Source: an uncultured Oscillospiraceae bacterium (lineage in GTDB: Bacteria > Bacillota > Clostridia > Oscillospirales > Oscillospiraceae). Taken from it: a stretch of 48,275 nt of DNA. The DNA is taken from contig CANRFT010000014.1 in NCBI GenBank assembly GCA_947629955.1, positions 1 through 48,275 on the forward strand, written 5' to 3'. Below are positions 18,676 to 33,854 of the stretch, one piece after another. The position numbers and the translations under genes were made by a program. Within the stretch, counting starts at the first letter, position 1, and each line of letters opens with the position of its first letter. Below the pieces are notes generated by a model, which saw nothing but the letters and a program-made list of their open reading frames with translations, made no database searches and was not told where the DNA came from.

Positions 18676-19329
18676 TCACTGCTGGCTGCTGCAGGTTTTC
18701 AGCCTGCGGTAGATCTCCAGCCCGTCTTTTCGTCCGAAACGGCGCAGGGCGTCCAGATAGATCACTTTTGGCGACGCTCCCGCCTGAAGGGTATCCTGGA
18801 TCTCTTCCAGACGGTCAGCATACGCGGTGCCCTCAAATGCCTCGCGGAGCATCTGCCGGATCTGAAGGCTCTCCTGGTAGGCGGCGTAGAACTGGCCGAT
18901 GTCCAGCGTTTTGCGCTGGGTGCGAATCAGGTTCGCCCGCGCGGTGTTCTCTCCCGCCGCGGCGATCCCCTGCTCGACGCTGTCGCTCAGGATCACCCGG
19001 TGCTTTGTCCCGGAGCGCTCCTGCCAGTAGTCCCGGAGGGCCTTGAAGCCGGTGTCGCCGCTGATGACCACGGCATTTTTGCATTGCTCGGCTCCGAACA
19101 GCTCTCCGACCTTCGTGGCGATGTAGAAGTCGAGGCCGTTCTTTCGTTTTTCCAGCAGCTCGCAGACCTCGAACCCGCAGCCGGAATTTTTGATGTTATC
19201 CAGATGCCGCCGTTCCATCGTAGGGGAGGCGGGGCCGTAGAAGACGATGACGTGATCTGTGGGCAGGAGATATTCGCTGCCCCGCATCCCGGAGTTGTGG
19301 ACATTTTCGTAGTCGATCAGGAAATACAT
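18676..19329 (-). CDS. NYN/PIN-like domain protein, putative ribonuclease
   Basis: 217 residues. It opens with YFLIDYENVHNSG, the first Asp-containing strand of NYN domains, and continues with GLDFYIATKVGELF and NAVVISGDTGFKALRDYW, which supply the other conserved acidic residues of the PIN-like metal site. The C-terminal 80 residues are helical and charged. NYN proteins are Mg2+-dependent RNases. No membrane segment is visible. It stands at the left edge of the island as the first cargo gene. A defence role alongside the CRISPR system is inference. The start at 19329 is supported by the first conserved strand and a GGGGGCG site. Confidence 0.75.
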   Translation of the reverse strand: MYFLIDYENVHNSGMRGSEYLLPTDHVIVFYGPASPTMERRHLDNIKNSGCGFEVCELLEKRKNGLDFYIATKVGELFGAEQCKNAVVISGDTGFKALRDYWQERSGTKHRVILSDSVEQGIAAAGENTARANLIRTQRKTLDIGQFYAAYQESLQIRQMLREAFEGTAYADRLEEIQDTLQAGASPKVIYLDALRRFGRKDGLEIYRRLKTCSSQQ

Positions 19330-19434
19330 AACAACGCCCCCTCGACCACAGTATAGCACAGATGGCGGCTGCGGTCGAGAGGGTGTTAGAGCGCAAAACG
19401 GGTTGCGGACAACCGCTGACACAAAGATTACATG

Positions 19435-20079
19435 CTAGGGTTCCTGAGAAACCTCTTCCTCCTGCGGGACAACGGACGCTGAGTCAGTTTGAGATCCCGC
19501 TTGGTCCATGTAAAGCCATTGGATTGTGTACTCCGTTTCGGTAGCATCGCCAATGTTCTTCACGTAGTCCTTCAAGAGCGCTTTCACTCGCTGTTCCGCC
19601 TCTGCCAGGAGTGTGCAGTCGGTGGAGGCGGCCTCTTTCAATTTAGCCTGAGCCTCACTGAATGCCCGGGTCTCGTCTTCTGCCGTTATTTTTGCCGAAT
19701 CCTTCGCCACAATATAGGAATCTTTGGTCAGAGAAGCGGAATCTACACGGCAGTTCAATACCTCTACTGGTGGTAAGGTAATAGTCACGTGGTCTTGATC
19801 AACCGTAAATTCCATCTTAGAGGCATCAATTCCCAAGCGGACCACGCCGCTGTACTCAATCCAGAATTTTTTATCCTGTTTCCAGAATAAAATGCCCGCC
19901 GCATCCTTTTCAAAATACTTCGCCACATTGTGATAGTAACAGTCCATCACCGCAAGCTCACAGATGTATTCCATCTGCGATTTTTCGATCCCTGGCTTGA
20001 CAGGAGATTCTTTGGTGCCGCATGCTGTGCATGAGAGGAGCATCACCAGCGCCGCAAAAAAACTGATCCACTTTTTCAT
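19435..20079 (-). CDS. DUF4230 lipoprotein
   Basis: 214 residues. A lipoprotein signal (hydrophobic core then LLSCTACG, lipidated Cys near 19-22) is followed by a DUF4230-type body: an N-terminal helical segment, VRLGIDASKMEFTVDQDHVTITLPPVEVL, and a C-terminal helical part with ALLKDYVKNIG. The C terminus is acidic and Gln/Glu-rich. The function of DUF4230 is unknown. It lies 13 bp after a second DUF4230 gene, so the two are an operon and probably partner at the membrane. Confidence 0.7.
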   Translation of the reverse strand: MKKWISFFAALVMLLSCTACGTKESPVKPGIEKSQMEYICELAVMDCYYHNVAKYFEKDAAGILFWKQDKKFWIEYSGVVRLGIDASKMEFTVDQDHVTITLPPVEVLNCRVDSASLTKDSYIVAKDSAKITAEDETRAFSEAQAKLKEAASTDCTLLAEAEQRVKALLKDYVKNIGDATETEYTIQWLYMDQAGSQTDSASVVPQEEEVSQEP

Positions 20080-20092
20080 TTGACGCCTCTCC

Positions 20093-20719
20093 TTACTCAA
20101 TGACCAACGCATAAGCGTCACCCCACTGTTCGATAAACGGCTCAACCAGTGCTTTGACGGTATTTTTTGCGTTCTGGTCGGCTAATTCAAAGATTGCATC
20201 TTCTATTTTGCTCTCCGCTTTCACATCGGCCTCGCACGCTTTAAATGCGGTCTCTGTTACCGTGCTGGTGTTGGCTTTGTCATTCATGAAGATGTAATCT
20301 AAAGACGAAATGTCTACATTGGCCTCGGTGATGTATACGTCCGGAATCGTGACATGGATCGTTTTCTTTCCCGCTTCATCTTCTGAATCCACTATATTGA
20401 TGTTAAGCTGATCCAGGTTGATGCCGGCCTTGACAGTTGCCTCATAGGAGACATAATAATCGATCTGTTCAGGTTTCTCGTTGTTGTTCACCTGGGCGAT
20501 TCCATTATATACCGCCGTAAATGTGGACAGCTCACTGACATTGATGATTTTTTTCAAAGTCGAATCCGTTACTACCTCCGGCTCCTGATTCGGTTTCCCG
20601 ACCGTCTTCGGCATGATGGACCAAGCCACAAAAATGGCAACAGCGATAACTGCTGCAGCGACAAGAATCGGTAGGGTTTTTGCTTTTTTCTTTGAAGATG
20701 TCGTTTTTTCCTCAGACAT
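20093..20719 (-). CDS. DUF4230 membrane protein
   Basis: 208 residues. A Lys/Ser-rich cytosolic start of about 15 residues precedes one membrane helix (TLPILVAAAVIAVAIFVAWS). The outer part shows the DUF4230 pattern: YEATVKAGINLDQLNINI, IHVTIPDVYITEANVDISSL and a helical end with VKALVEPFIEQWGDAY. It is a paralogue of the next gene. The ATG at 20719 follows GGAGGG. The topology suggests a single-pass, outward-facing protein paired with the lipoprotein. No function is known. Confidence 0.7.
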   Translation of the reverse strand: MSEEKTTSSKKKAKTLPILVAAAVIAVAIFVAWSIMPKTVGKPNQEPEVVTDSTLKKIINVSELSTFTAVYNGIAQVNNNEKPEQIDYYVSYEATVKAGINLDQLNINIVDSEDEAGKKTIHVTIPDVYITEANVDISSLDYIFMNDKANTSTVTETAFKACEADVKAESKIEDAIFELADQNAKNTVKALVEPFIEQWGDAYALVIE

Positions 20720-20855
20720 ACGGTCATTCCCTCCTTGAATGTGTAAAGCTGATAGCTTTTTCTTTATACTGTAACTGAGCGGAAAAATGGGATGTCTGGA
20801 TCTGCGGTTCACATTTTCTTTTTCATAAAAGCCAGATCAAACAACTGGTCATTCA

Positions 20856-21266
20856 TTACAGCGTTCTTAGCTCCAGATCCAACTTGACCACCTGCATCCA
20901 ACGCAGATGGACGAAGTGAAATTTGGGATCTCCGTTTTCATCCAGGAGACCGGTAGGTCTGCGCCCGGAGACGGATAGCAGAATCGGCCTGTTTCCCGCC
21001 AGCCTGAGCAGTTCAGCCAGAGGCTTGATCGGCAGCACGGCGCACACCGCGTCCGCCTCCCTCACAGCCGGGGCCAGATCGGCCACATCCTCCACCGTGT
21101 CGGGCCAAACGGTCAGGCGAACCGGCCCACCCATGATCCGACGCAGGTCCGCCATCTGTCTCTCTGTCATTCTGTGGCGGGAGATCCACAGCACATTCTT
21201 CGTCTTTCCCTCGCCTCCTTCCCGCTCCTTGCGGCGCGCGCCCTCAAAGTGGGTCCGCTGGGCCAT
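20856..21266 (-). CDS. Small conserved protein, Csx20-like (tentative)
   Basis: 136 residues as drawn. The conserved part begins near residue 23 (NVLWISRHRMTERQMADLRR) and continues with EADAVCAVLPIKPLAELL, PILLSVSGRRPTG and FHFVHLRWMQVVKLD. The opening (S-x-H-x-[ML]-T-x-x-Q) and the alternating strand-helix pattern recall Csx20 and the related Csx16, small CRISPR-linked proteins reported as cyclic-oligoadenylate ring nucleases. The resemblance is by eye and weak. The first 22 residues are low-complexity; no good ribosome site precedes the ATG, and a GTG at the Val of NVLW may be the true start. It is 12 bp from the Gly-rich peptide gene. Confidence 0.5.
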   Translation of the reverse strand: MAQRTHFEGARRKEREGGEGKTKNVLWISRHRMTERQMADLRRIMGGPVRLTVWPDTVEDVADLAPAVREADAVCAVLPIKPLAELLRLAGNRPILLSVSGRRPTGLLDENGDPKFHFVHLRWMQVVKLDLELRTL

Positions 21267-21278
21267 ACCGGCGCAGCG

Positions 21279-21461
21279 TTACTGCCCGGAAGCAGCTTTT
21301 ACCATCTCCGCGACGGAGCCCAGCCCCGCTCCGATAAGGGCACCGATACAGTTTCCCACCGCTTTGCCCAGCATTCCGTTTCCACCCGCGTATGAGGCGA
21401 TGGCCTCTCCGATGGTTCCGCCGACCCTGCGGCAGACTTCCACGATTTCTTCCAGCTTCAT
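21279..21461 (-). CDS. Gly-rich hydrophobic small peptide
   Basis: 60 residues. A short charged start (MKLEEIVEVCRRVG) is followed by a Gly/Ala-rich hydrophobic segment (GGNGMLGKAVGNCIGALIGAG) typical of bacteriocin-like or membrane-inserting peptides. No double-Gly leader cleavage site is clear. The ATG at 21461 has a GGAGATG site. It begins about 80 bp from the CRISPR leader and reads away from it. A similar Gly-rich peptide stands by the leader of the other array. Confidence 0.5.
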   Translation of the reverse strand: MKLEEIVEVCRRVGGTIGEAIASYAGGNGMLGKAVGNCIGALIGAGLGSVAEMVKAASGQ

Positions 21462-21539
21462 ATGAACATCTCCTTTCACTTGCCTTCATATCACTCTCGG
21501 ATCATTCGGGCAGTTTTTCAGGGCATGCGGGAAAAATTA

Positions 21540-21734
21540 GTGCGAACCTCTCGTTTTTACACGGGGAAACACACTGTCCGGAAAGAGGTTCGCACCGCCA
21601 GATGGCGGCCAAGCGGAAGGATTTTTGCTCTTTCTTGACAAAAACACTTGCATTTTTTACGTATGGTGATAAAATATAGATGCGGGTTGTGGAACTCCCA
21701 CAAAAACGCCTGACTCGGGTTGTGCAGTTTTGCT
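21540..21734 (+). promoter_or_regulatory. CRISPR leader of array 1
   Basis: About 195 bp nearly identical, in inverted orientation, to the leader of array 2. It starts with a 12-bp inverted repeat (GTGCGAACCTCT at 21540-21551, complement at 21584-21595). A candidate promoter is TTGCAT (21648-21653) with TAAAAT (21670-21675), spacing 16 bp, preceded by TTGACA (21635-21640). The last 25 bp before the first repeat (ending GTGCAGTTTTGCT) are also conserved. Confidence 0.8.
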
Positions 21735-22167
21735 GACGCAACCCGCACCCCTCACGGGGACGGCAACCGGGGGACCTGGCCAAGCCCATCATCAAAAACG
21801 TGACGCAACCCGCACCCCTCACGGGGACGGCAACTTGATGGCCCAGCAAGTCAAATAGACCCCGATGGACGCAACCCGCACCCCTCACGGGGACGGCAAC
21901 ACGTGGGCGGAGGAGTTGGACGCGCCCGCCCGGCGATGCAACCCGCACCCCTCGGACGGCAACGTGCTGCTCCTACGGCTGCCCCGCCCGCCGTCCCGAC
22001 GCAACCCGCACCCCTCACGGGGACGGCAACCTCAACGGCCTTGATAGCCTCGTCGAGCTTGGCGACGCAACCCGCACCCCTCACGGGGACGGCAACCCGG
22101 CGTTTGCTTCGCCGCTCTCCACCTTTTGGACGGTGACGCAACCCGCACCCCTTGCGGGACAGCAAAA
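21735..22167 (+). CRISPR. CRISPR array 1 (7 repeats, 6 spacers)
   Basis: The 33-bp repeat starts GACGCAACCCGCACCCCTCA and ends CGGGGACGGCAAC; CCCC-TCAC-GGGG can form the crRNA hairpin. Repeats begin at 21735, 21802, 21868, 21935, 21998, 22064 and 22135; spacers are 33-38 bp. The fourth repeat has a 4-bp deletion and one substitution, and the last is degenerate, as expected at the end away from the leader. A terminator follows. The array is transcribed toward the leftward cas operon. Confidence 0.95.
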
Positions 22168-22210
22168 AAGACTGCCAGCCAGCATTCTGCCGGTTGACAG
22201 TCTTTTTTGC
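22162..22210. terminator. Terminator between array 1 and cas6
   Basis: 13-bp arms GCAAAAAAGACTG and complement enclose a GC-rich interior stem; T-runs are present on both strands, so it can end both the array transcript and the convergent cas operon transcript. Confidence 0.8.
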
Positions 22211-22216
22211 TCTGAT

Positions 22217-22951
22217 TTAATTTACCTTTACCCCGCCCATGCCCAGGGTGGTTTTGATCCCCACTCCGGCATAGCCGGAGAACAGCAACAGAGCATTGGC
22301 AAAATCCCGCTGGAAGGCGGATAAGCGGTTTTCCAATGTGAGTTCGCCCACAAAACCGGGAATGGAACTGCCCTTCAGATAAAACATCCGGCTTTGGAGC
22401 CGGAATTCCCGGCACCGCAGCCCATCGGCCAGCGCCTCCAGGCCCTCGCCGTCCTCGTCCTCAATGACGCAGCCGGGAAAGGAACCGTTCCACTTTTTGA
22501 TTAGGCTCTGCACGATCAGTCGTGTGGTGGGGAGATTCAGATACCGGCTGCGGCTTTTAAACCCGGTAGCGGTGCAGAACCGAAGCCGGTGGAGGCCGCT
22601 GTGGGCGGCGCCCATATCCAGCAATGTCTCCACATCCGGCACCCGTTCGCACAGCCGGTCTGCCACACGAAGGGTGACCTTATCCTTTTCCAGATAAAAC
22701 TCCCGCGTTTCCTCCAAAATTGGGGAGAGGGCGGCGCGGCAGCTCTCCCCCAGCAGGTTCACTGTCCAGATCAGATCCTCGCCCTGCCGGGAGAGAAACT
22801 GGCTCACTGGGGTGACGCCGTCCTCGTGGACGTCAACGCTGAAAGGGGCGGGCGCCATTGCCAGAAGCGCCGCATACAGGCGGTATCCCCACTCCGGCCG
22901 GGGCCGGCATGGGCTTGCCGGCAGGAGTGTCAAACGGTATTGGGTCAGCAT
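22217..22951 (-). CDS. cas6: CRISPR repeat endoribonuclease Cas6
   Basis: 244 residues. The C terminus carries the glycine-rich loop characteristic of Cas6 RAMP proteins (LLFSGYAGVGIKTTLGMGGVKV). Two ferredoxin-like halves are consistent with the length. Cas6 cuts the precursor crRNA within the repeat to leave an 8-nt 5' handle, here predicted as ACGGCAAC. Candidate catalytic His residues are present (for example in DVHEDG and the AAHSGLHRL segment) but cannot be assigned by eye. The ATG overlaps the end of the preceding sigma-like gene by 7 bp. It is the last gene of the operon and faces array 1. Confidence 0.88.
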   Translation of the reverse strand: MLTQYRLTLLPASPCRPRPEWGYRLYAALLAMAPAPFSVDVHEDGVTPVSQFLSRQGEDLIWTVNLLGESCRAALSPILEETREFYLEKDKVTLRVADRLCERVPDVETLLDMGAAHSGLHRLRFCTATGFKSRSRYLNLPTTRLIVQSLIKKWNGSFPGCVIEDEDGEGLEALADGLRCREFRLQSRMFYLKGSSIPGFVGELTLENRLSAFQRDFANALLLFSGYAGVGIKTTLGMGGVKVN

Positions 22952-23805
22952 TGAATATACTCCTTCAGAAAATCACGATAGGATGACCGCTGCATGGAAA
23001 TCGCGGAAGTGTTGACGTTTTTATGTTCCACTTTCTTCATATAGGCTGCATATACATCCAGCGGCAGAGGCTGCCCGGGAGGCTCATCCATTGTGCGGCC
23101 ATCCACCAGATCTCCGTAACGCTTCAAGTCGCTGTTTATGATCTCTACCGCTGTTCGGCAGCTCCGATACAGGATATAATCCAAAAACTCCGTTTTAATT
23201 GCTGCAAACAGATCCCGTTCATGACGGATGAACACCTGGCCGTGGCTGCTGGCCTGGAGGATCTCAACCGCGCTGTCTGTGAAAAAAAGGCGATAATAGT
23301 TGATTCGTGTTGGATTGTTTGCCCGTCCGCTCAGCCGTTCAGGCAGCGTGAGCATGAGCGTCAGCAGCTCCAGAGTCATGTCGTCTAATGCGAGTTTGTT
23401 CCCGCCCTCGCTGCTTTTGCCCGGGATAAGGCTGCCCATAGTATCACCGGAGTCATCGCCTATAGGCATATCCAGCGAATCATGTCGTGTCTTGACCGCG
23501 ATTTCCTTATCTGTCCTGTCTGAGATTTTGGTTTCCCGTCTCCCGTCATAGTCCTGCCGGACAAGATCCTTTATGCGGTATCCCAGTCGCGCGGCAAGAA
23601 AATCGCTTAGAGCGCCAGCCTCCGCATTGAACGCCTGCCAATCATTCAGGAAAAACAGGCCCATCGCGTCAGCCTTCTTCGGGAACACTTCCATAGCCAG
23701 AATAAAGATTTCGTTTTGCAACGCCATTCTCGCCGCGTCGCATCCCTCCGGGGGCAGTTCACACCATTTTCGCCCGATCTGGTCCAGACGTTCTCGTTTG
23801 TCCAT
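22945..23805 (-). CDS. Sigma-factor-like protein within the type III CRISPR operon
   Basis: 286 residues with no standard cas name. Residues of about 40-130 resemble sigma-70 region 2 of the SigH/SigK kind: DWQAFNAEAGALSDFLAARL, then GYRIKDLVRQDYDGRR, then HDSLDMPIGDDSGDTMGSLI, the last matching the SLD-x-PI...L-x-D/S-x-I stretch after region 2. The C-terminal part (about 252-283, YMKKVEHKNVNTSAISMQRS) could be a helix-turn-helix (region 4-like). The middle (150-245) is helical and unassigned. The start follows a clear AAGGAGG site. It sits 13 bp after the standalone CARF gene and overlaps cas6. A transcription role is inference; it could also be a Cas11-like helical subunit. Confidence 0.5.
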   Translation of the reverse strand: MDKRERLDQIGRKWCELPPEGCDAARMALQNEIFILAMEVFPKKADAMGLFFLNDWQAFNAEAGALSDFLAARLGYRIKDLVRQDYDGRRETKISDRTDKEIAVKTRHDSLDMPIGDDSGDTMGSLIPGKSSEGGNKLALDDMTLELLTLMLTLPERLSGRANNPTRINYYRLFFTDSAVEILQASSHGQVFIRHERDLFAAIKTEFLDYILYRSCRTAVEIINSDLKRYGDLVDGRTMDEPPGQPLPLDVYAAYMKKVEHKNVNTSAISMQRSSYRDFLKEYIQC

Positions 23806-23818
23806 GGCCACGTCCTCC

Positions 23819-24439
23819 TTACAGCGCGAGGATGCGGTCAATGGTCTCCTTGGGGTTCTTTACGCCCCGGTCAGCCAGAACCCGGACAATCTCATCCAAC
23901 TGGATCAAGGCGGTCATATCGTATACACTGGCCCGGGGGGGCTGGACGGAGCGGTCGACCAGACCATAGACGATACAGGAGATGCTGGTATTCTTCTTGA
24001 CGCGATAGGCGTATTGCACCGCCATCATCACGGCGGTGGACAGAGGCTTGGTGCCATAGGTCATGCAGGCGAAGAGCTCGTCGTCGTCCTCCACAAAGTC
24101 GATGAGCTTCTGGAAGGTAGCTACATGCACTGCCACGCGCTCGTCTGTCTCCACAGAGATCTGCTCCACGCCTTTGGGGCAGCAAAATCCACGAACTGCG
24201 CAGAGCTGATCCAGTTGGGTCTGGAATACGGCGGCATTGCGGCGGCCGTCTTCATTGTCGGTCATGACGGCGATGACCCGGAAACTCTCTCCCGGCTCCA
24301 CATAGCCGTTCACCGCTGTGAGGATGGGGAAGCAGGTGGCTTCCTCCATCTGAAGCCTGGTATTGCCCACGGCACCGTATTGATAGGACTTCAGCTGTCC
24401 TTCCCCCTGTAACGGAACTACGGTAAAGAATTTTTTCAT
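23819..24439 (-). CDS. Standalone CARF-domain protein (TM1812/Csx2-like)
   Basis: 206 residues. The Rossmann-like CARF fold is suggested by SFRVIAVMTDNED and LFACMTYGTKPLSTAVMMAV followed by TSISCIVYGLVD, which corresponds to the ligand-binding D-x-T-H/G-G region of TM1812-type proteins, here with Tyr-Gly. No HEPN motif (R-x4-H) or other nuclease domain is visible, so it could be a ring nuclease that removes cyclic oligoadenylate or a ligand-controlled regulator. The gene overlaps the end of the CARF-HEPN gene by 4 bp and is followed by the sigma-like gene. Confidence 0.72.
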   Translation of the reverse strand: MKKFFTVVPLQGEGQLKSYQYGAVGNTRLQMEEATCFPILTAVNGYVEPGESFRVIAVMTDNEDGRRNAAVFQTQLDQLCAVRGFCCPKGVEQISVETDERVAVHVATFQKLIDFVEDDDELFACMTYGTKPLSTAVMMAVQYAYRVKKNTSISCIVYGLVDRSVQPPRASVYDMTALIQLDEIVRVLADRGVKNPKETIDRILAL

Positions 24440-25752
24440 TTGCGATGCTTCTCCTTCCTTTTGGTGGGGGACAGGCGGTCCAGCGCGGTCAACAGGGCTT
24501 TTTTGATATCCTGCACGGACAGCGCCTCCAATTTTTTGTATCTGGGCGAGGAAAGCCCGGATAAATACTTCTCTAGGTCCTTCTGATTCTCTGTCCCAGA
24601 ATCATTAGCGTGGTTAATCATATTCCGGATACTGCGGATATAAAGATAGTCTGTTAAAATGTCGTGCATTGCCATATATGAGCAGTGGAACTGAAACAAA
24701 CCGCTTTGTTCCATCTTCTGCTGCAAACGGCTCAGGGCATTCTGGGGGGGATTATACTGGAGCATCCTTGTCAGTCGCTCTCGGAAGCATACCTCTTCAA
24801 TGCTCTCGTAGTTCTTCTTGTCTAATCCCTCAAACGCCTTTGGACTTGCCTCAAGAATATCTGGACGATCCCGCAGAATATAGGCGGGTATCCGCTCCTT
24901 ATAGAGGGTGAGCGCTTGTTGGATCATGCCATTCTCCACGCACCAGCGGATGATACCCGGCATGGTCATGCTCCGGCCGAATTTTTCTCGGAAGGCGGGG
25001 ATCAAAACGCACATGAGCGGATCAGAACAATTCTCGACCTCATTCAAGGCCATATTAAAGGCATCCATCTTTTCGTCAAGATTCTGCGTCTGGCAGATTG
25101 AGATGGCCTCCGTCAGATCTTTCATGGAGTCTACCAGCAACTTGATCTTTGAATCCTTGGTATTCTGGTAATATGCACTGAGGCTCTTTACATTGCCCAT
25201 GCTGGACAGCTCCTGCATCCCGCCTACCAAATCAAACATACCAATCAGATGAGAGATGTCCTCCACCCGCTTGGTCTGATAATTGCTGTACACAGCTCCT
25301 GCGGTGGAAACGCCCCGGTAAGTAAGCACCCGGCTGAGCAGCAGCAAGTACATATTGGCGTTGCGGAAACCGCCGGTGGTATCAAGGTAGATGCTGTCGC
25401 CTGTCTGCACATACTTGTTCACAATCGCAGGGATGGCTGTCTCTGCGAAGTTTTGGTTCTCGTCATATTGGACCCCAATCACTTTTACCGTTAAGCCATC
25501 TCTCCTCAGCAGCGCACCGAGCCGCTTTACGCCCGCTTGAGCTGTCTTGGTCGCCACACAGATAACTTCGATGATGTCGCTGTGAGCTTTCAGCAAATAT
25601 CGCACAGGAGCGTCGTTGGTCTGAGTTCCGAAAACCGTAGTTCCATCTGGACAGGTGTATTCTCTGGGAGTTCGGAGCAATCCAACGACCTTTCCTTTCT
25701 TGTCCTTCCTGTACCGGAGATTGCTGAGGAACAGAATGATTTTCTTTGACAT
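24436..25752 (-). CDS. CARF-HEPN ribonuclease, TM1812/Csx family
   Basis: 438 residues. The N-terminal CARF domain opens IILFLSNLRYR and holds the ligand motif YLDTTGGFRNANMYLLLLSR (Asp124-Asn131), typical of TM1812 proteins that bind cyclic oligoadenylate. A helical middle links to a C-terminal HEPN domain with R376-NMIN-H381, the R-x4-H catalytic motif of HEPN RNases. On binding the second messenger made by Cas10 it would cleave RNA non-specifically. The ATG at 25752 has a GAGGT site; a GTG 21 bp upstream overlaps the previous stop and is an alternative. Confidence 0.85.
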   Translation of the reverse strand: MSKKIILFLSNLRYRKDKKGKVVGLLRTPREYTCPDGTTVFGTQTNDAPVRYLLKAHSDIIEVICVATKTAQAGVKRLGALLRRDGLTVKVIGVQYDENQNFAETAIPAIVNKYVQTGDSIYLDTTGGFRNANMYLLLLSRVLTYRGVSTAGAVYSNYQTKRVEDISHLIGMFDLVGGMQELSSMGNVKSLSAYYQNTKDSKIKLLVDSMKDLTEAISICQTQNLDEKMDAFNMALNEVENCSDPLMCVLIPAFREKFGRSMTMPGIIRWCVENGMIQQALTLYKERIPAYILRDRPDILEASPKAFEGLDKKNYESIEEVCFRERLTRMLQYNPPQNALSRLQQKMEQSGLFQFHCSYMAMHDILTDYLYIRSIRNMINHANDSGTENQKDLEKYLSGLSSPRYKKLEALSVQDIKKALLTALDRLSPTKRKEKHRK

Positions 25753-25769
25753 TTCTATACCTCTTCGCC

Positions 25770-27641
25770 TCACAGCCTGCCGAACTTCCGCCGGAGAGCC
25801 TCATACGGATCTTCCGGGGCCTGGGCAGCCAGATTATCTGACTTTTCAGCTTTCTCTCGCACCGTTTTCACATCCGGCAACACGGCTGTCAAATTTTTAT
25901 ACTCCGATAAGTCCATATAGCTGGTGTCCAATCCGCAACGAAGGGGTCTATGCATAAAGAAAAAGTCCTGGATCGCATCCAAACTTCGGATAGACGGTGC
26001 TTTCTTGGGCTTTTTCACTCGAAGCTGCTCGCTGACCCACGCATCATATTTTTGAATATATTGATCCACTTGCTCGTCATTAACAGCGATAGGTCCGTTG
26101 CACAGCCCATCAGGCTTATACAGAGCTTTCATATCATACTCCCGCAGACTGTCGATTGTCAGCTTCATCCGGCCAAACCCGTAAGGCTTGCCCATACCAA
26201 TGCTCTGATAGCAGCCTTCCTCCAGCCGCAACGCCCATAACAGCAGCCCAAGCTCGTCTTCGTGGAGATTTTTATAGCGGATGACCCCGCGGAAAACAGT
26301 CCCCGCAGGCAGGGGGCGCAGGGCAGAACCGACCCTCTCCTTTCCCTCGGGAACCGGCGGCGCTTTGGCATCTTTCAGCCAGTAGAGCTTAAACCCCCGA
26401 AGGTAGAACTCGTCGGCGTTATAGTGCTCACCGTTTACCACATATCCGGTGTACCAACTGGGTTTGGGCTGGCCCAGGATGGTCCTGACCGGCGCACTCT
26501 CTCTGGGATCGCCCTGTGCGGCAAAATCCCCGAAAGACACGCGGGAGCGATACGAACCTTTGTCCTCGGCAAATCCCAAGACTGCGTGGATGTAGTCCAG
26601 TGGCGTACTTCCAATGCAGCGCTCTGTCTGTGGTCCAGGCAGGCCCTCAGACAGCGTATGGCTGTAGCCGATGCGGAGGAAGAGAGACATACCAAAATAG
26701 GTGTGGCCGTTGCGCTGGATGTAAAAGACCGGTTTTTCCTCCCCCTCGTCAGGCAGTGCCCAGAAGCGGGCCTTCTCCTTCCCCAGCACGTTCCGGCGGA
26801 CCTCGAAGTCCTCCGCGTAGGAGAACCAGTCCACCTCGGAGATCCGCACCGGGGCAGCGGTTTCGTCGGCGGCGGGGAACAGGTAACGGGCGTTGGGCTT
26901 ATTGCCCACCGCTTTCCCGGTATAGAGAAGCACCCCCTGCTCCATACCGGGCACCGGGTCTGCCGATCGGCGCAACTCCTTCACCCGCCCGCCTTCCGCG
27001 ATATAGGCGACAGGGACCGTCTTTGCCTCCCCTTCGCTGAGGCCTGCCGCTGTCAGAGCGGGATTGCTCCGGGGCACGCGGAGATAGCTGTCCTTCGTGG
27101 GCTGGATGTAGAGACTTTTGCCTGCCTGCCGGAGATACCCAGTCTTTACGTCCTTAGGGACAGAGAAAGACTTGCCCGCCGTGTCTTTGCCGGTCTCGAT
27201 TCCCAGCGCTCCCTGATAGTATTGCTTCAGCGGGTTGGCGGCACTTTCCCTCGCCGCCGCCATCTCGCGGAAGTAAATCTGATAGTTTTCCAAGTCCTCC
27301 TCGGGCTGAATCAGTCCGAAGCCCAGGATCTGCATATTCTCCCGAGCCATGCCCCGAATGGTGGAGCCGGGCAGCATGAGCTGACCGTTAGGGCCTCTGA
27401 AGAAATGTTCGTTCCCATCCGAGACGAACACCGGTGTTTCCGCGGTCATGGTCACGTGGATCTCCCCGGTCTTCAATACCGGATCGATACTATCGTGACG
27501 AGGCAAATCCTCCGCGTTACCGTAGCGGATTAAAACGCGCTCAACTCTGCTTTTGCCGGAACAGATGTTAGTGCCGGAGTTATTTTTGCTGTGGAACGGT
27601 ACGAAGTTATATGGCGCATGCACGCCTCGTTTCTCACTCAT
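25770..27641 (-). CDS. Type III-D RAMP protein, TIGR03986-like (Cas7 with insertion)
   Basis: 623 residues. The Cas7-type RAMP start is visible in MTAETPVFVSDGNEHFFRGP followed by LMLPGSTIRGMARENMQILG, the thumb/G-rich region. The fold resumes near the C terminus with LRLEEGCYQSIGMGKPYGFGRMKLTID. The 350 residues between are an inserted domain, as in the Cas7-insertion subunit of type III-Dv complexes and the TIGR03986 family. It would be one backbone subunit that grips crRNA and may cleave target RNA. An acidic residue (Asp in FVSDGNE) sits where Cas7 active-site Asp is expected. The start has a GGAGGG site. Confidence 0.8.
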   Translation of the reverse strand: MSEKRGVHAPYNFVPFHSKNNSGTNICSGKSRVERVLIRYGNAEDLPRHDSIDPVLKTGEIHVTMTAETPVFVSDGNEHFFRGPNGQLMLPGSTIRGMARENMQILGFGLIQPEEDLENYQIYFREMAAARESAANPLKQYYQGALGIETGKDTAGKSFSVPKDVKTGYLRQAGKSLYIQPTKDSYLRVPRSNPALTAAGLSEGEAKTVPVAYIAEGGRVKELRRSADPVPGMEQGVLLYTGKAVGNKPNARYLFPAADETAAPVRISEVDWFSYAEDFEVRRNVLGKEKARFWALPDEGEEKPVFYIQRNGHTYFGMSLFLRIGYSHTLSEGLPGPQTERCIGSTPLDYIHAVLGFAEDKGSYRSRVSFGDFAAQGDPRESAPVRTILGQPKPSWYTGYVVNGEHYNADEFYLRGFKLYWLKDAKAPPVPEGKERVGSALRPLPAGTVFRGVIRYKNLHEDELGLLLWALRLEEGCYQSIGMGKPYGFGRMKLTIDSLREYDMKALYKPDGLCNGPIAVNDEQVDQYIQKYDAWVSEQLRVKKPKKAPSIRSLDAIQDFFFMHRPLRCGLDTSYMDLSEYKNLTAVLPDVKTVREKAEKSDNLAAQAPEDPYEALRRKFGRL

Positions 27642-28003
27642 AGCGTTCCCTCCCATCTTGTCAGGTGAGTGGAGGTCAGATTTACCTGCCCGTCCTCATC
27701 CGCCTCCAACGTGTAGCTGACGGTAATGCTCCTTCCGAACCTTGGGTTCTCGATCTCATAGGTGCGCTCGATGACAGAGTCATCAGTTTCAGAGATAAGC
27801 TGGACCGCCCTGAGCTGCCCACCGGTCCGAAATACCCGGATCTCCTTCTTACTGTTGAAAAAGCGGACTTCAATGAGGTCGTCCTGATCGATTTGCGCCG
27901 GAGGTGGCCCCAGCGACACCACGCTCAAGGTGCGCACAAGCGCCCAAGGCAGGGCGGCTCCCCAATCCAGCGCCTCCCGCACCGTGATGATTTCAGTCTT
28001 CAT
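27638..28003 (-). CDS. Csx19-like small subunit (tentative)
   Basis: 121 residues, mostly predicted beta strands: KTEIITVREALDWGA, LIEVRFFNSKKEIRVF, RTYEIENPRFGRSITVSY, STHLTRWEGTL. By eye it has no diagnostic motif. Position and size between the double-Cas7 gene and the Cas7-insertion gene match Csx19 (TIGR03984), the accessory subunit of type III-D/III-Dv complexes. Its start overlaps the previous gene by 11 bp and its end overlaps the next start by 4 bp. The identity rests on context; another small Cas component is possible. Confidence 0.5.
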   Translation of the reverse strand: MKTEIITVREALDWGAALPWALVRTLSVVSLGPPPAQIDQDDLIEVRFFNSKKEIRVFRTGGQLRAVQLISETDDSVIERTYEIENPRFGRSITVSYTLEADEDGQVNLTSTHLTRWEGTL

Positions 28004-29282
28004 CTGCTGTGCCTCCCCATGCCTTCAGCCATTCCGCAGCCAACCCCTCTGGGTCGTCCAGTGTACACACCCGCGTCTGGTCAAATTTCAGAGCGGTCCG
28101 CCGCCCGTCAGGCGCTGTCGCCTCAATGGTATCCACTGTCACATAGCCCCGTCCGATAGAACCGCCGCTGCCCAGATTGTACAACCCCAGCCCTAGATCC
28201 CGAAGGGCAAACAGCAACAGAGCGCAGCCTAAAGGTTCCTCCGGCGCCGCAACGCGCAACGTCACAGGGCCGCTGATCGGTTCTTCCTTGAAGAGCCCGC
28301 CCCGAATCACTCCTCCGGTGAACTTGTTAATGCGGATACGGGTGATCTTCTGTTTCCTGTTTTGATCCATCCACATATCCTCAAAGCGAACCCTGCCGGC
28401 TTTTCCGTTGTCATCGGCTCCGGCACTCCGTCCAAACAGATTATCCGTCTCACTCTCATTTAACCCGTTGAGCCGTGCGATAGCCTCCGTACGGGCCCTG
28501 ATTGCTCCCTTGATGGAGGATCCGGGCAAAACCGGCCGTCCACCCTCGGATTGGTTGGGAGTATAGCTGCCGTTCTCGTCCTGCTCCAAAATTGCGGCGC
28601 GGATCAGGATGTTGTCCGCTCTGCCGGTTACGGTAAACATCACCTCCCGGCGGATTTCAGCCTCAGCAAGGGCCAGCGGCACACCATCGTTCGCGTCGTC
28701 CAGCCACGCCTGGCGATCCTTCTCGTCGGTCATGTCAAAGCACCGCTTAGTAACGGTCGTCAGCGCTACCCGGCCAAAACCGTTGGACTTCTGGGCCCCC
28801 AGGCGGATCTCTCCGCTGTTCATGGCCGCCAGCATTTGCTCTACAATCGTGAGTTCATCCGTATTAGCCTTGGTGCCCAGCCATGTCAAGGTAAATCGCA
28901 ACCTTGCCCCGATCCCGATATGAGCGATGTCAAACTTCTTGCCAGTTCCAGGTTTCTTGTCACACTCAACCGTCATAGCCTTTTTGTCGATTTTCAAGCG
29001 GGGCCTGATATACTGCTGCGCATCCCGGGAAAAGTGTCCGTCTGAGACAATCAGCCGACCTGTCTGTCTCTGATTGCCAAAGAGAGCGTCCACTGTCTGG
29101 GAGGAATTGGCCTCAAGCCATCCGCGCAGGGCCCCGGCGAGAGAAGTCCCCTGAAAGAATGCCTGGCCCGAGGTGTCCCGGAGCACCGCCTCCACGTCGC
29201 CGTCTGCTCCGCCGGTGCGCAGAGGCGTCCGACATTGGACCGTCACATCGTAAATGACCGCATATGTAAATGCCGCGCTCAT
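27993..29282 (-). CDS. Double Cas7 RAMP protein (Cas7-2x, Csm3-like tandem)
   Basis: 429 residues made of two Cas7/Csm3-like domains. Domain 1 (about 1-205) shows VQCRTPLRTGGADGDVEAVL, then FFQGTSLAGALRGWLE and RLGAQKSNGFGRVALT. Domain 2 (about 220-400) shows RADNILIRAAILEQD, VLPGSSIKGAIRARTEA and LGLYNLGSGGSIGRGYVTVD. Asp residues in both finger loops (GDVEAVLRD; LEQDENGSY) are candidate target-RNA cleavage residues. This corresponds to Cas7-2x of the type III-Dv complex. The ATG overlaps the previous stop region (TGAGATG), so translation is coupled. Confidence 0.85.
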   Translation of the reverse strand: MSAAFTYAVIYDVTVQCRTPLRTGGADGDVEAVLRDTSGQAFFQGTSLAGALRGWLEANSSQTVDALFGNQRQTGRLIVSDGHFSRDAQQYIRPRLKIDKKAMTVECDKKPGTGKKFDIAHIGIGARLRFTLTWLGTKANTDELTIVEQMLAAMNSGEIRLGAQKSNGFGRVALTTVTKRCFDMTDEKDRQAWLDDANDGVPLALAEAEIRREVMFTVTGRADNILIRAAILEQDENGSYTPNQSEGGRPVLPGSSIKGAIRARTEAIARLNGLNESETDNLFGRSAGADDNGKAGRVRFEDMWMDQNRKQKITRIRINKFTGGVIRGGLFKEEPISGPVTLRVAAPEEPLGCALLLFALRDLGLGLYNLGSGGSIGRGYVTVDTIEATAPDGRRTALKFDQTRVCTLDDPEGLAAEWLKAWGGTADED

Positions 29283-29283
29283 C

Positions 29284-31269
29284 TCAGCCCGCCTCCTTCC
29301 CTCTGCGGCTGTAGTTGAACAGCTGACACAATAGCTCCAGCCGCGCCGTTGGGGTATCCGTGCAGGGGACCCCAATCGTCACAGAGATCGGCTGCTCCGC
29401 CACGGTACGGATCAGCCGGGAGATATTGGCGAACCGTGCCCCATGCCGCGCGCCACGATTCTTCTCGTTTTTGTCCAGAAAATCATACAAGGCATCAGTA
29501 TTCCCGTCCTGCCCCATGGCCTCCTCGCACAGGGCCTGGATCGTTCCCAACTGGCTCCTGGACAGGCCGCCGCGATACACATTCTCTGCGTTCTTCATGA
29601 TCCAGTTATATTTTGCCCGGCGGGCCCTGGCGGCGGCGGTCTCCGCCCTCGAGATGTCTTTTCCTATGGCCTTTTTCCGCGTCAATCCTTCAAAGAGGGC
29701 GGGGCGGAGAAACAGCACCTGCCCAAAACCCTCAGCGGTACGGACGCCCAGACCGGCCCGCTCGACCGCCCGGAGTGTGTCCAGAGCCGGGGCCCGGTTG
29801 CAGCGGAGCTTGAAAACGCTGCCCCGGTCATACATGGGCACAGCGGGTTCCCGGCACTGCCAGGTCCGGTTGTAGCCGCCGTATTCCGTTACGGAGGTGG
29901 CACACAATTCCATCTTCACCTCGCCGACCCCCAACAGCCGGGTCAGTTCCGGCAGATCCAGACCGCAGGGCTCGCCGTTCGGCCCCAGCATGGCCAGGGG
30001 AGACAGGGCCAGCAGGTAGAGGGTCGTTCCCACATCGGCCTGACTCCGGCAACCGTAGGCGGAGATCCAACCGGGAGCATCTGCTCCCTCCAGAGCGGTC
30101 ACCCTGCATTTCCCGTGACCCTCATACCGGTCCGCGCCCAGCCAGACAGTACCGGCAAACACCCCAGATATCTTTTCAGCAAGGTCCGATCCATCCAGCG
30201 TGATGTATCCGGTGAACTCCTGGCCGGCCTCCAGATAGCGGGTCTGGAAGGGACGGGTGTCCTCGCCCTTGGCCACGTTCCGCTGGATGCGGGTGACGCC
30301 GCCGGTCCGGGCGCTCCAAAAGCGGACGGTATCTCTATCCAGGGCGCAGAAGGATCCCAGCCCGGCCCGTTTATAACCCGGCGTGACATCGCCTGTTTTG
30401 AGTACGGATTGAAAGTCCGTCTCATCTTTGTTCTCATAGAACCCCTTAATGGATGGGATGGCCTCCAGGCCGTCAACGCTGGGAACGGCGTCGGAGAAAC
30501 GGGTCCTGTCGGAGAGCAGCTCCCGCCGGTGGGCCTTGAACCAGTCCGGATCCCGCAGGGACAGCTCGCTGAGGACCATGCCGCGGATGGAGGAACCGGG
30601 GATGAACCCCCTGGTCTCCCAGTTGTTGCCACGGCTGCGGCTCAAATCGGTGATGATGAGCGGGGTCTCGGTGCGCAGCCGGTAGCGGATGCAGGCAACG
30701 CCGGACAAACTGCGCTCCGCTCCCGACGCCATTCCCATATTCTCCGCGCTGAACCGGACCTGGCCGAAGCCCCGGCTGCGCATGGCGCCGGTCCACTTGA
30801 TGCAGGCAAGGGCATTTTGCAGCAGAGAGACGTCCGTCTCCGCGCACTCGAGAAGCCCGGAGAAGCGCAGCCCCCGGCGGATACAGGAGGCGGTACGCAG
30901 GCTGCCGGTCTTAACCACGCCGCGTTCCAACTGCGTGAAGGTCCGCAGGGCAAAGCAGTCATCGGGCTCGGCGGGAGGCTCATCCAGGATCAGTGGGGTG
31001 AGCTTGACCCGGCGGTCATCCGCCGTTCCGGCCCAGCCGGATTCGCCCATGAGAATATCAACTGCGCCCTCGTCTTCCCCGGACCAGGCCAACCAGTTGG
31101 TGAGGCTCTCCCGCAGCAGGCCCTTGAAGGCGGTGCCGGGGAGATAGGGGTATCCGGAACCATCCACCGCCACGGCGATATCCTCGCCGCCGGGAATGCT
31201 GAAGCCGGAGCCGAAAACGGCGTCGGACAGCAGTTCCATGGTGACGCGCAGTTCCGCTCTCGCGCTCAT
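29284..31269 (-). CDS. Fused RAMP protein: Cas7-Cas5(Csx10-like)-Cas11-like
   Basis: 661 residues in three parts. About 1-185 is a Cas7 domain (LLSDAVFGSGFSIPGG, YLPGTAFKGLLRESL, WTGAMRSRGFGQVRF). About 190-530 is a second RAMP of Csx10/Cas5 type (RLRTETPLIITDLSRSRG, FIPGSSIRGMVLSELS, ADRYEGHGKCRVTAL, LYLLALSPLAML). About 555-655 is helical and charged (ETAAARARRAKYNWIMKNAE onwards) and could be the Cas11 small subunit, which is otherwise missing from the locus. The order agrees with the Cas7-Cas5-Cas11 fusion known from type III-Dv. Domain borders are estimates. The start overlaps cas10 by 4 bp. Confidence 0.8.
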   Translation of the reverse strand: MSARAELRVTMELLSDAVFGSGFSIPGGEDIAVAVDGSGYPYLPGTAFKGLLRESLTNWLAWSGEDEGAVDILMGESGWAGTADDRRVKLTPLILDEPPAEPDDCFALRTFTQLERGVVKTGSLRTASCIRRGLRFSGLLECAETDVSLLQNALACIKWTGAMRSRGFGQVRFSAENMGMASGAERSLSGVACIRYRLRTETPLIITDLSRSRGNNWETRGFIPGSSIRGMVLSELSLRDPDWFKAHRRELLSDRTRFSDAVPSVDGLEAIPSIKGFYENKDETDFQSVLKTGDVTPGYKRAGLGSFCALDRDTVRFWSARTGGVTRIQRNVAKGEDTRPFQTRYLEAGQEFTGYITLDGSDLAEKISGVFAGTVWLGADRYEGHGKCRVTALEGADAPGWISAYGCRSQADVGTTLYLLALSPLAMLGPNGEPCGLDLPELTRLLGVGEVKMELCATSVTEYGGYNRTWQCREPAVPMYDRGSVFKLRCNRAPALDTLRAVERAGLGVRTAEGFGQVLFLRPALFEGLTRKKAIGKDISRAETAAARARRAKYNWIMKNAENVYRGGLSRSQLGTIQALCEEAMGQDGNTDALYDFLDKNEKNRGARHGARFANISRLIRTVAEQPISVTIGVPCTDTPTARLELLCQLFNYSRRGKEAG

Positions 31270-32765
31270 GCTTCCACCTCCTCAAAGGGCGTATAGTGGT
31301 CCATCATCTCGATGGCGTCGAAGAACAGACAGCGCTTTTCGCCGCCTATATCCGTAAAAGCAGGCTTATCCAGTTCAATCTTTTCTGCGAACATCCGTTT
31401 ATAGTAGTCCCACCGGGCGTCGGGGTTTTGGTATTTGGCCTCAAACCCGTGGTAGAGCAGATCGCTGATCTGCCTGTCGTGGATGAAAAACGTGCTCTCC
31501 ACCTCTCCCTGTTTCAGCGCGGTGCGCAGCTCCTTGATCTTGCTCCGGGCAATCCTGCCCTTTTCCTCCTGGAGGGCCCGGCAGAGGCCCCGGACAAAGG
31601 CGTAGTCCCGGACGCCGGCATCCCCGCACCCCCGGGGGACCAGCACCGTCACGGGGCGCAGCTCCAGCCGGGCGCCGTCCTCCGTCCAATAGTCTTCCCG
31701 CAGCTCGGACAGGCTGTCCTTCAACTGGCCGAACTCGATGTGCCAGTCCATGGCGGAGATCCGGCCCTCCGGGTCCAATCCCGCCCCGAACTTTTTGGCA
31801 CTGGAGCACAGCTCCTCCGCCAGATCATAGGCCGCGTGGAAGGGAAATTTGGTGTGGACCAGGGCCACTCCGGCGCAGGCGGCGTAGGGCGGCTGCCCGC
31901 CGGCGTCCATCTGCGAGAGCTCCTCCAGGAATATCCGGGCGCACTCCAGGCCGATGGAGCCGGCGGACACGAGGCACACGTCGTCTCCGGCCAGGATCAC
32001 CGGGCGGACGGCAAGCCGGGGACAGCGGTCCGGAAGCTGCCGGGCCACCCGCTCCGCCATCCGCCGGAAGGCTCCCTCGAAGCTGTCCTGGATGTTCTTG
32101 CTGAAGGCCCGCAAGGCGGCGCAGCAGGCGTCCCAGTCCCCATCCTCCTTATGATAGATGCGGTCCACCCGCTTCCCCATGGCGTTGCCGTCGATGTGGA
32201 TCACGGCGATGAAGTTGTCGTCCCCGGCCAAATCCTCAAATTCTGTGGGAAATGTCCAGCCCTGGGGCAGAAGCCCGGGAAAGCCCTCCCGGCGGGGCGC
32301 GGGCCGGGTTTCCGCACCGAGAAGGGCCGGCCGGTGGGTCTCCTCCCCCAGCGTCTCCACGCCGAAGCTGAGGCGGCGGAAGGAGGACCGGCGCAGGGAC
32401 TTTTTCCGCTCCAGCGCCTTGGACAGCTCTTTCAGGTTCTCGCCCGGGGTCCTGGCCGGGTCGTAGGGCATCTGCCTGACGAACAGCTCCAGTCCGTCGT
32501 ACCGGCGCAGGACGGCCTCGGTCACCGTCTTCGCAAAAGCGGTGGCCTGTTCCCGGCCCTCGAACTGGAGGACCGTGTGGCCGCCGCCGGAGTAGACCAT
32601 GTTCTTCTCCTCGCTGAACAACTCCTCAGCGGTCTCCCGGAAGAACGCGCTGCTGGTGACATAGGCAATGTCCATTGAGCGGGCCGCGTTTTCCCGCAGC
32701 TTATTGCTGGAGAAAATGTAGTCTTGCTTGCGCGATACCTCCAGGATCATCAGCGTTTTTTCCAA
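31266..32765 (-). CDS. cas10: Cas10 large subunit lacking the HD nuclease domain
   Basis: 499 residues. The protein starts directly with the first palm domain (LEVSRKQDYIFSSNKLRE; GGGH at 60-63), so the N-terminal HD DNase domain of most Cas10 proteins is absent, as is usual for type III-D. The second palm has HIDGNAMGK (metal Asp192) and LAGDDVCLVS, an AGDD (259-262) in place of GGDD; both catalytic Asp are kept, so cyclic-oligoadenylate synthesis is likely. A helical C terminus follows. The start is TTG with TAGGAGG 8 bp upstream. First gene of a nine-gene leftward operon in which every neighbour overlaps or is closely spaced. Confidence 0.92.
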   Translation of the reverse strand: MEKTLMILEVSRKQDYIFSSNKLRENAARSMDIAYVTSSAFFRETAEELFSEEKNMVYSGGGHTVLQFEGREQATAFAKTVTEAVLRRYDGLELFVRQMPYDPARTPGENLKELSKALERKKSLRRSSFRRLSFGVETLGEETHRPALLGAETRPAPRREGFPGLLPQGWTFPTEFEDLAGDDNFIAVIHIDGNAMGKRVDRIYHKEDGDWDACCAALRAFSKNIQDSFEGAFRRMAERVARQLPDRCPRLAVRPVILAGDDVCLVSAGSIGLECARIFLEELSQMDAGGQPPYAACAGVALVHTKFPFHAAYDLAEELCSSAKKFGAGLDPEGRISAMDWHIEFGQLKDSLSELREDYWTEDGARLELRPVTVLVPRGCGDAGVRDYAFVRGLCRALQEEKGRIARSKIKELRTALKQGEVESTFFIHDRQISDLLYHGFEAKYQNPDARWDYYKRMFAEKIELDKPAFTDIGGEKRCLFFDAIEMMDHYTPFEEVEA

Positions 32766-32823: not shown

Positions 32824-32926
32824 CCAATATCTCCTCCTGATGTTTCGCCTCACACCTGTTACTCGCGGCTCGAAACGGATAATTCAGGGCAGGCGGCAAA
32901 TTCTTTCAAACCTTAAATATAAAAAC

Positions 32927-32959: not shown

Positions 32960-33025
32960 GTCTTGCACCTGTGGGGTGTGCGGCCCTCGTCCGATCCGTG
33001 CAGTTTAACGTTCCCTTTTGTACCA

Positions 33026-33854
33026 GTTGCCGTCCCCGTGAGGGGTGGGACTGCGTTACTTCGACATCGATTACAACAAATACAGCTACCTGTTGCCGTC
33101 CCCGTGAGGGGTGCGGGTTGCGTCGGCGGCCAGCAGGCCGGTGTCCGCGGAGGGCCTGTTGCCGTCCCCGTGAGGGGTGCGGGTTGCGTCCCTTTCTGTT
33201 GCCCTCGTTACCTCCGGGGCGGGTTGCCGTCCCCGTGAGGGGTGCGGGTTGCGTCTGTATCTGATGGTATGTGTGACAGTAGGTCTCGTTGCCGTCCCCG
33301 TGAGGGGTGCGGGTTGCGTCGAAGGTTCGTGAGTTGAAGACCAAGAAGTCTAAGTTGCCGTCCCCGTGAGGGGTGCGGGTTGCGTCGGACTAAGCCGAAA
33401 CGGCCCGAAGGGCCGTCCGGTTGCCGTCCCCGTGAGGGGTGCGGGTTGCGTCTCAGAGCAACGCCTACAAGTTCCTTGCCCATTCCCTGTTGCCGTCCCC
33501 GTGAGGGGTGCGGGTTGCGTCGGTCCTCCGCCATCTACTTCGTGCGCCGGGCGGTTGCCGTCCCCGTGAGGGGTGCGGGTTGCGTCTGCTCGTTGGAGTT
33601 GTAGGCCTGCTTGCCCGCGGTTGCCGTCCCCGTGAGGGGTGCGGGTTGCGTCCTGTGGATCATCGAGTGCGAGCTGGCCTGTCGAATTGTTGCCGTCCCC
33701 GTGAGGGGTGCGGGTTGCGTCCGTCTCCCACTTGGTAACGGCGGACTGGTCCACCGTTGCCGTCCCCATGAGGGGTGCGGGTTGCGTCACCCGTGTTTAG
33801 ACCGCTAAACCACGGAAAACCGTTGCCGTCCCCGTGAGGGGTGCGGGTTGCGTC
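33026..33854 (-). CRISPR. CRISPR array 2 (13 repeats, 12 spacers)
   Basis: Same 33-bp repeat as array 1, in inverted orientation (plus strand reads GTTGCCGTCCCCGTGAGGGG onward). Repeats begin at 33026, 33092, 33158, 33223, 33288, 33354, 33420, 33489, 33554, 33620, 33689, 33756 and 33822; spacers are 32-36 bp. The repeat at 33026 is degenerate in its last third, marking the distal end; the one at 33756 has a single change (CCCCATG). The leader is on the right, so transcription runs leftward in the same direction as the cas operon. Confidence 0.96.

Follow-up and report, generated by a model that had tools for sequence, protein, structure and literature searches.

A divergent sigma-70-family protein paired with a standalone CARF gene as the likely transcriptional output of a type III-D CRISPR locus

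The alarm signals of type III CRISPR systems are mostly known for turning on nucleases and toxins. CRISPR-linked sigma factors have also been described: in type III-E, the RNA-triggered protease Csx29 cleaves Csx30, the inhibitor of the ECF-type CASP-sigma (PMC10028731), and the SAVED-Lon protease CalpL cleaves the anti-sigma factor CalpT, the release of the sigma factor CalpS being tied to cyclic oligoadenylate (cOA) (PMC11229360). SigI lacks sigma region 4, which its C-terminal domain does not resemble in sequence; it recognises the C and the G of a CGWA -10 element through residues that include R98, D101 and R104 (PMC10575876), and published SigI promoters follow ACCCCC--AA N15 CGAA in Bacillales and CCCYYAAA with CGWA for SigI3 of C. 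thermocellum (PMC4711584). Here we describe a protein of 286 amino acids (aa) encoded within a type III-D CRISPR operon in a 48,275-nucleotide (nt) stretch of DNA from an uncultured Oscillospiraceae bacterium (GCA_947629955.1, contig CANRFT010000014.1, positions 1 to 48,275; hereafter the window). We consider it likely that this protein, a divergent sigma factor whose sequence comes closest to SigI, is the transcriptional output arm of the III-D system, gated by the neighbouring standalone CARF protein and reading promoters of its own.

As with CASP-sigma and Csx30 (PMC10028731), a sigma factor would sit in a type III locus with proposed promoters inside that locus, but the III-D operon yielded neither a protease nor an inhibitor of this kind, and a CARF gene is paired with the sigma-like gene instead. 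The III-E sigma model NF041236 had no match in the window protein, in five homologues or in L019, L020, L022, L018 and L021 (L and G numbers are our handles), and it did match the SigI control L012 (1.8e-5). The proposed scheme resembles CalpL-CalpT-CalpS (PMC11229360) in linking cOA signalling to a sigma factor; no Lon or SAVED match was seen in the nine operon proteins (for two Cas proteins, among the PADLOC matches listed) or in six further window proteins (PADLOC). The scheme is also like that of Csa3 in that a cOA signal would reach transcription through a CARF domain, but Csa3 is a single DNA-binding protein with CARF fused to a winged helix-turn-helix (HTH), whereas the CARF and the sigma-like protein are encoded by separate genes. 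No description of a CARF-sigma pair was found among the papers listed for CARF, for type III/III-D with sigma factors or for CalpS/CalpT, so that a prior mention is possible, nor in passages of PMC11229360, PMC4012209, PMC12409355, PMC10028731, PMC4711584 and PMC10575876; PMC12669027 does not contain the word 'sigma'. CRISPR-linked sigma factors as such are known, and the protease-free, CARF-paired form appears to be new.

The 286-aa open reading frame (ORF) is real: on the minus strand it runs from an ATG at 23805 to a final codon at 22948 and a stop at 22945-22947, and the plus-strand reading of the same interval is interrupted by stops. This confirms the frame of a first-pass annotation, made from the letters alone, which had placed a protein other than a standard Cas between a standalone CARF gene and cas6 and had read part of it as sigma-70 region 2 followed by an SLD-x-PI segment. 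Searched singly, the protein matches no Pfam, NCBIfam or PADLOC model at E<=1 and no PDB sequence at E<=10; the sigma-like stretch, at about residues 40-127, reaches significance only with homologues in the profile. Compared with hhalign, the eight-member family profile matches SigI at 4.3e-8, RpoD at 1.2e-6, an ECF/SigH set at 2.5e-4 and a SigF/G/B set at 1.8e-3, against 0.18-0.56 for the negative controls (n=11), and the similarity to sigma region 2 is significant by this measure (controls at least 0.18). A profile search of PDB returned sigma factors as 25 of the 28 sequences at E<=1, and the SLD-x-PI segment, which aligns to a 22-residue segment of RpoD, yields the best of these matches (SigB, 7.7e-5). 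Two homologues match directly, L006 to Sigma70_r2 (E 0.0032) and SigI (4.1e-5) and L005 to SigI (1.4e-5) and to the RpoD/SigA type (4.3e-5). The sigma-family comparison suggested in the first pass thus bore out its reading, and by sequence the protein is a divergent member of the sigma-70 family.

Its closest known relative by profile is SigI, with which it shares the absence of a region 4 match and probably promoters close to the CCC..AA, spacer, CGWA type. In a class-wide search with a six-member profile, matches arose in eight genomes beyond the window's own, and seven of the eight were SigI genes, named by eye from an adjoining RsgI-like gene and checked with NCBIfam in two cases. When the -10-reading positions of SigI (its residue numbers R98, D101 and R104 being placed onto the SigI sequence by pattern) are aligned to the nine distinct family members, the window and L007/L035 included, R77 is kept in nine, D80 in eight and R83 in five. 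The protein nevertheless differs from SigI in that the SigI model cut-offs are not reached (best member L005, 24.6 bits against a cut-off of 260; the window protein has no SigI model match at all), the C-terminal domain has no profile match to SigIC, and a CARF partner stands where SigI has the membrane anti-sigma factor RsgI. It is therefore a sigma-family protein that resembles SigI in region 2 and in the promoter it presumably uses, yet is no SigI member by the models.

An AlphaFold2 model, built on eight sequences and with four of its five versions at a mean pLDDT (predicted local distance difference test) of 61-64, has a confident helical N-terminal domain (sigma-2-like helices at about 1-88), a disordered linker (about 89-140) that holds the SLDMPIGDD segment, and a helical C-terminal domain (140-286). 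The prediction, which the first pass had called for, thus gave two helical domains joined by a linker, and comparison of one model with known folds gave no significant match (143 chains ranked by Foldseek, 142 aligned). The region-3.2-like segment between the domains is present for the family by profile, although visual inspection does not show it clearly in L021 and L035. A C-terminal HTH, which had been thought possible, finds some agreement in the two helices that end the model (249-258 and 266-284), but remains unproven because neither of two versions of the family profile matches sigma region 4 in the C-terminal domain. That a small, mostly helical protein within the operon might instead be a Cas11-like structural subunit of the III-D complex, the alternative named at the outset, we regard as almost certainly wrong: Csx19, PADLOC's Cas11 core gene of III-D, already fills that slot, the similarity points to sigma factors, and related CARF-sigma pairs exist without effector genes.

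The sigma-like gene is built into III-D loci. Among 60 related genomes it was found in three, the window's own included, and among 394 genomes of the order, searched with a three-row profile, in five, again including its own, of which one (L008 in G311) proved spurious (59 positions, 86-aa frame); L015 was likewise dropped as spurious. A scan of public genome contigs gave seven loci (L018-L024, from Oscillibacter, Flavonifractor, Butyricicoccus and related metagenome-assembled genomes; by contig coordinates L002, L003, L005 and L006 are the same as L018, L021, L023 and L024), all seven of which carry III-D effector genes, in line with the first-pass view of the gene as part of the CRISPR operon. 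Viral contigs searched with a five-row profile gave 38 pattern matches, none of them confirmed, and a plasmid search for the sigma-like family found nothing. A standalone CARF gene lies directly upstream in all six loci with sequence on that side (L018 begins at a contig end), and the two genes stay adjacent while the position of cas6 varies. L035 is a 13-kilobase (kb) contig with CARF-HEPN, CARF and the sigma-like gene, the III-D genes of the same genome lying on another contig. Cas10d occurs in five of 295 genomes of the order, three of which have the CARF-sigma pair; in the remaining two (G236, G098) a contig end truncates the locus.

The loci with a sigma-like gene share a promoter-like motif. 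Run on nine upstream stretches, an automatic search found no pattern in more than 3 of the 9 sequences, equalled by one of 20 shuffles; by eye the motif then emerged in four of the nine as CCCTGAA[T/C]T with CGA farther along. In its strict form, CCCTGAA-N17-CGA[G/T], it has 15 sites in eight sigma-positive loci (211,722 bases), which include three of the discovery sites (window 32889, L019 378, L022 1671), the fourth seen by eye having a spacing of 18. Any other spacing from 5 to 30 gives 0-2 sites in these loci, the motif read backwards none, and 153 kb of other fetched loci none for the strict motif; 50 block shuffles average 0.24 sites (maximum 3) and 300 letter permutations of the motif 0.19, a single permutation reaching 6. 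CGA(G/T) follows at exactly N17 after 15 of the 40 CCCTGAA of these loci. Across the eight sigma-positive genomes, 15 of 30 matches fall inside the loci where 0.15 would be expected (background 0.73 per megabase), with P about 3e-19 after the three discovery sites are dropped, a guide value only, as spacing and last base were fixed with some other sites in view. By genome, the matches at the locus number 3/6 (G000), 4/4 (G005), 2/4 (G265), 3/4 (G801), 1/1 (G246), 2/6 (G799), 0/3 (G025) and 0/2 (G800); the four of G234 all lie off the contig that carries its pair, and neither G694 nor G772 has any. Per-genome totals do not exceed those of the backwards control, and the promoter signal lies in the clustering at the loci. 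With the wider form C(C/T)CTGAA, the locus contig of G246 holds six of that genome's eight matches, even though its sigma shares only 22% identity. Looser forms can also be found within coding sequence (window -27794).

Given this clustering, the CARF-paired sigma probably reads C(C/T)CTGAA-N17-CGA(G/T), which is close to, though not identical with, the published SigI consensus (PMC4711584). That very resemblance would suit a different account, in which another regulator, such as the host's SigI, uses the motif and the sigma-like protein, no longer able to bind polymerase, serves as a decoy or scaffold; the window protein alone matches no sigma model, and its clamp-contact residues, judged by eye, appear degenerate. 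We hold this to be improbable, as the motif is clustered at loci with the sigma-like gene and scattered in ten sigma-negative genomes of the genus (13 matches, never two on one contig), and the family mostly retains the R-x-x-D-x-x-R positions and the region-3.2-like segment. More doubtful still is the idea that the protein inhibits transcription by sequestering core polymerase, as a sigma mimic, in infected cells: ancillary proteins of type III systems are often toxic and region 2 looks degenerate by eye, but a dedicated promoter set at the same loci argues for a positive use.

In L020, motif-like copies at 7827 and 11744 have GGAT in place of CGA(G/T) and lie ahead of the expected genes, and L020 is the only member with S80 in its sigma, together with N83. 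The -10 element may co-vary with the residues that read it, which is only a suggestion because the GGAT spacing scan in L020 has no peak (two sites each at N16, N17 and N19).

The genes behind these sites are of recurrent kinds. The window, G005 and G799 have the motif ahead of cas10, as does G265 at spacing 18; in G801 the motif precedes an ORF ending in a Cas10 remnant. A protein of 120-136 aa that starts with VLWISRHxMTxxQ is encoded at seven of eight close-family loci, the exception being the cut locus L018, and was not found in L035, L060 or L061. At all seven loci its gene is the first or second after a site, namely the motif at G005 3549, G265 68568, window 21523 and G801 51851, CTCTGAA at G246 875, and the variants at G799 11150 (GCCTGAA) and L020 11744 (GGAT for CGAT). 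This makes the protein a candidate core member of the regulon. Its scanned members belong to no named Pfam, NCBIfam or PADLOC family (weak, unrelated matches to DUF7632 at 0.035 and HutC at 0.039); a likeness to ring nucleases of the Csx16/Crn4 type has no support from these libraries and is not claimed. Four sites, two in the window (21523, 34065) and two in G005 (4005, 14817), are followed by small Gly- or Ala-rich hydrophobic ORFs, G005 14817 being just ahead of the CARF-sigma pair. Genes with a von Willebrand factor A (vWA) domain follow the motif in G801 (Pfam 6.8e-8) and G246 (by eye).

In the first-pass annotation the factor was proposed to switch on defence genes, for example the NYN, DUF4230 or Gly-rich genes of the island. 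Motifs ahead of cas10, of the Gly-rich ORFs and of the run that ends in DUF4230 and PIN/NYN genes lend this indirect support. The window's PIN/NYN and DUF4230 proteins, however, have no relative at the seven other loci (phmmer, E<=1e-3), which rules them out as general conserved targets and leaves them at most local ones. With candidate genes visible at six strict-motif loci, the question of what CRISPR-linked sigma factors control, posed since CASP-sigma and CalpS, becomes testable.

The pairing with CARF extends beyond this family. A CARF query against 295 genomes of the order matched in seven; all four strong matches adjoin the sigma gene, and the three weak ones (G305, G090, G297) are standalone CARF genes followed by a gene of 292-300 aa. 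Two of these three partners match TIGR02937 (1.1e-5 and 3.6e-4), and the third (L029) matches Sigma70_r3 only, at E 0.16 amid unrelated matches of similar strength; a profile of all three matches RpoD at 1.2e-7, and the partners of the non-CRISPR pairs match sigma region 4 (SigE/K set 1.4e-6, SigF/G/B set 4e-6). In 17-20 kb around the three pairs there is no recognised cas gene (phmmer with the window's proteins, and by eye) and no CRISPR-like repeat array; the Cas10 palm domain has no match in G090 and G297 and one in G305, on a different contig. The PADLOC CARF2 family, at E<=1e-8 over 391 genomes of the class, occurs at 15 places in 14 genomes, of which three are standalone (the window's own, G772 and G694) and 12 are frames of 411-670 aa. 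G772 and G694 are III-D loci in the order CARF, partner, Cas10d, their partners matching the family profile at 2.4e-5 and at only 0.011, respectively. Similar pairs are held by an unverified gut phage record (L096) and by plasmid pTS2 of Treponema saccharophilum (L097), with partners that match the profile of the three non-CRISPR partners at 1.7e-91 and 1.9e-27.

Taken over all 15 standalone CARF genes whose downstream side was read (window, L019-L024, L035, L032-L034, L060, L061, L096 and L097; eight reached via the sigma gene, one, L096, via the sigma-like partner and six via the CARF gene), a gene of 273-428 aa lies directly downstream in every case, and 14 of the 15 partners have profile support for sigma similarity, some solely as group members. 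We give an even chance to a broader proposal, that the standalone CARF of the CARF2 type is the sensor half of a general, protease-free CARF-sigma switch that ties a nucleotide alarm to dedicated promoters. It would serve III-D loci and, through different sigma-like partners, islands of Bacillota and a Treponema plasmid that lack recognised cas genes and carry vWA, PP2C and kinase genes or an IetA-like ATPase. Downstream of the pair, G090 and L096 both have genes of the vWA, PP2C-like and kinase kinds (vWA and PP2C mostly named by eye).

Such sets, in which CARF and sigma-like genes are joined by vWA, PP2C-like and kinase genes at a distance from any recognised cas gene, lie at L033 9131-13440 and L096 2285-8754, the latter with a WYL-type gene (named by eye) upstream. 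At L034 9525-14382 the pair precedes a protein of 962 aa, part of which is an IetA-like ATPase (PADLOC 6.4e-41), in a genome without a Cas10 palm-domain match. In the spirochaete pair at L097 9001-10587, the CARF is annotated as TM1812 family and the partner as hypothetical (WP_002705254.1).

Given the above, we propose the following chain of events. The III-D complex would encounter target RNA, whereupon Cas10 would produce cOA; the neighbouring standalone CARF would bind it and, through direct contact, by release or activation, allow the sigma to join RNA polymerase. The holoenzyme would then initiate at C(C/T)CTGAA-N17-CGA(G/T) promoters and raise the output of cas10 and its operon in a positive feedback, of the VLWISRH protein, of small Gly-rich hydrophobic proteins, of locus-specific genes and, in one genome, of the CARF-sigma pair itself. 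The sigma similarity, the constant CARF pairing and the SigI-like promoter concentrated at the loci ahead of the same kinds of genes are the parts backed by data; that the sigma reads this promoter and that CARF gates it with a nucleotide signal we infer. The chain could part at this very step: a working sigma might autoregulate the locus while the adjoining CARF acts independently, as a ring nuclease or a sensor without control over the sigma. Standalone CARF ring nucleases exist, Crn1 being named as a ring nuclease in the literature, and what links the two proteins here is gene pairing. We nevertheless think an independent CARF unlikely, as the pair stays together while cas6 moves and related pairs occur away from recognised cas genes (L032-L034, L096, L097), including two genomes in which no Cas10 palm domain is matched (G090, G297) and where an off-switch for cOA would have no obvious job. 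If a CARF-gated sigma is correct, the type III alarm would also reprogramme transcription directly and feed back positively on its own effector genes, the standalone CARF2-type proteins would gain a testable role, and the promoter motif would offer a means of listing the regulon from sequence.

Table 1. Features of the window, with further members of the VLWISRH family. Coordinates are window positions unless a handle is given.
Feature	Position	Strand	Basis or remark
Sigma-70-family-like protein, 286 aa	22945..23805	-	frame, profiles, AlphaFold2 model
Cas6	22217..22951	-	library profiles
Standalone CARF, 206 aa, directly upstream of the sigma-like gene	23819..24439	-	PADLOC CARF2--CARF, PDLC01821, E 4.3e-81
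CARF-HEPN (Csx1/Csm6-type)	24436..25773	-	PADLOC
Cas7-IIId (TIGR03986)	25770..27656	-	library profiles
Csx19	27638..28003	-	library profiles
Cas7-IIId	27993..29375	-	PADLOC
Cas5-IIId (Csx10), N-terminal part Cas7-like	29284..31269	-	library profiles
Cas10d (III-D), TTG start	31266..32765	-	PADLOC, E 4.1e-103
CRISPR array, 7 repeat copies about 66 nt apart	21730..22171
Second CRISPR array, 13 repeat copies, opposite orientation	33020..33865
Promoter motif CCCTGAA-N17-CGAG	32862..32889	-	first base 124 nt ahead of cas10 start; discovery site
Promoter motif CCCTGAA-N17-CGAG	21496..21523	-	first base 62 nt ahead of the Gly-rich 60-codon ORF
Promoter motif CCCTGAA-N17-CGAG	34065..34092	+	first base 122 nt ahead of the 73-codon Gly-rich ORF
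Gly-rich 60-codon ORF, sequence like a ribosome-binding site, candidate target	21279..21461	-	weak Gly-zipper match, E 0.17
VLWISRHxMTxxQ protein, window member	20856..21266	-	conservation among loci
Same-strand run: DUF4230 proteins (20093-20812, 19435-20145), PIN7/NYN protein (18676-19422)	18676..20812	-	possible local targets
73-codon Gly-rich hydrophobic ORF, candidate target, opposite strand beyond second array	34187..34408	+
VLWISRHxMTxxQ protein, members outside the window	G005:C7 3593; G265:C13 68628; G799:C34 11202; G801:C6 52753; G246:C55 822; L020 11819

Within the window, the III-D operon runs on the minus strand in the order Cas10d, Cas5-IIId, Cas7-IIId, Csx19, Cas7-IIId, CARF-HEPN, CARF, sigma-like gene and Cas6, and is flanked on both sides by CRISPR arrays (Table 1); the Gly-rich 60-codon ORF heads the same-strand gene run that ends in the DUF4230 and PIN/NYN genes. 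In Flavonifractor sp. An92 (L022 1753-5569), cas10 is in short pieces and one cas7 frame is split, with the frames of the CARF and the sigma-like gene open.
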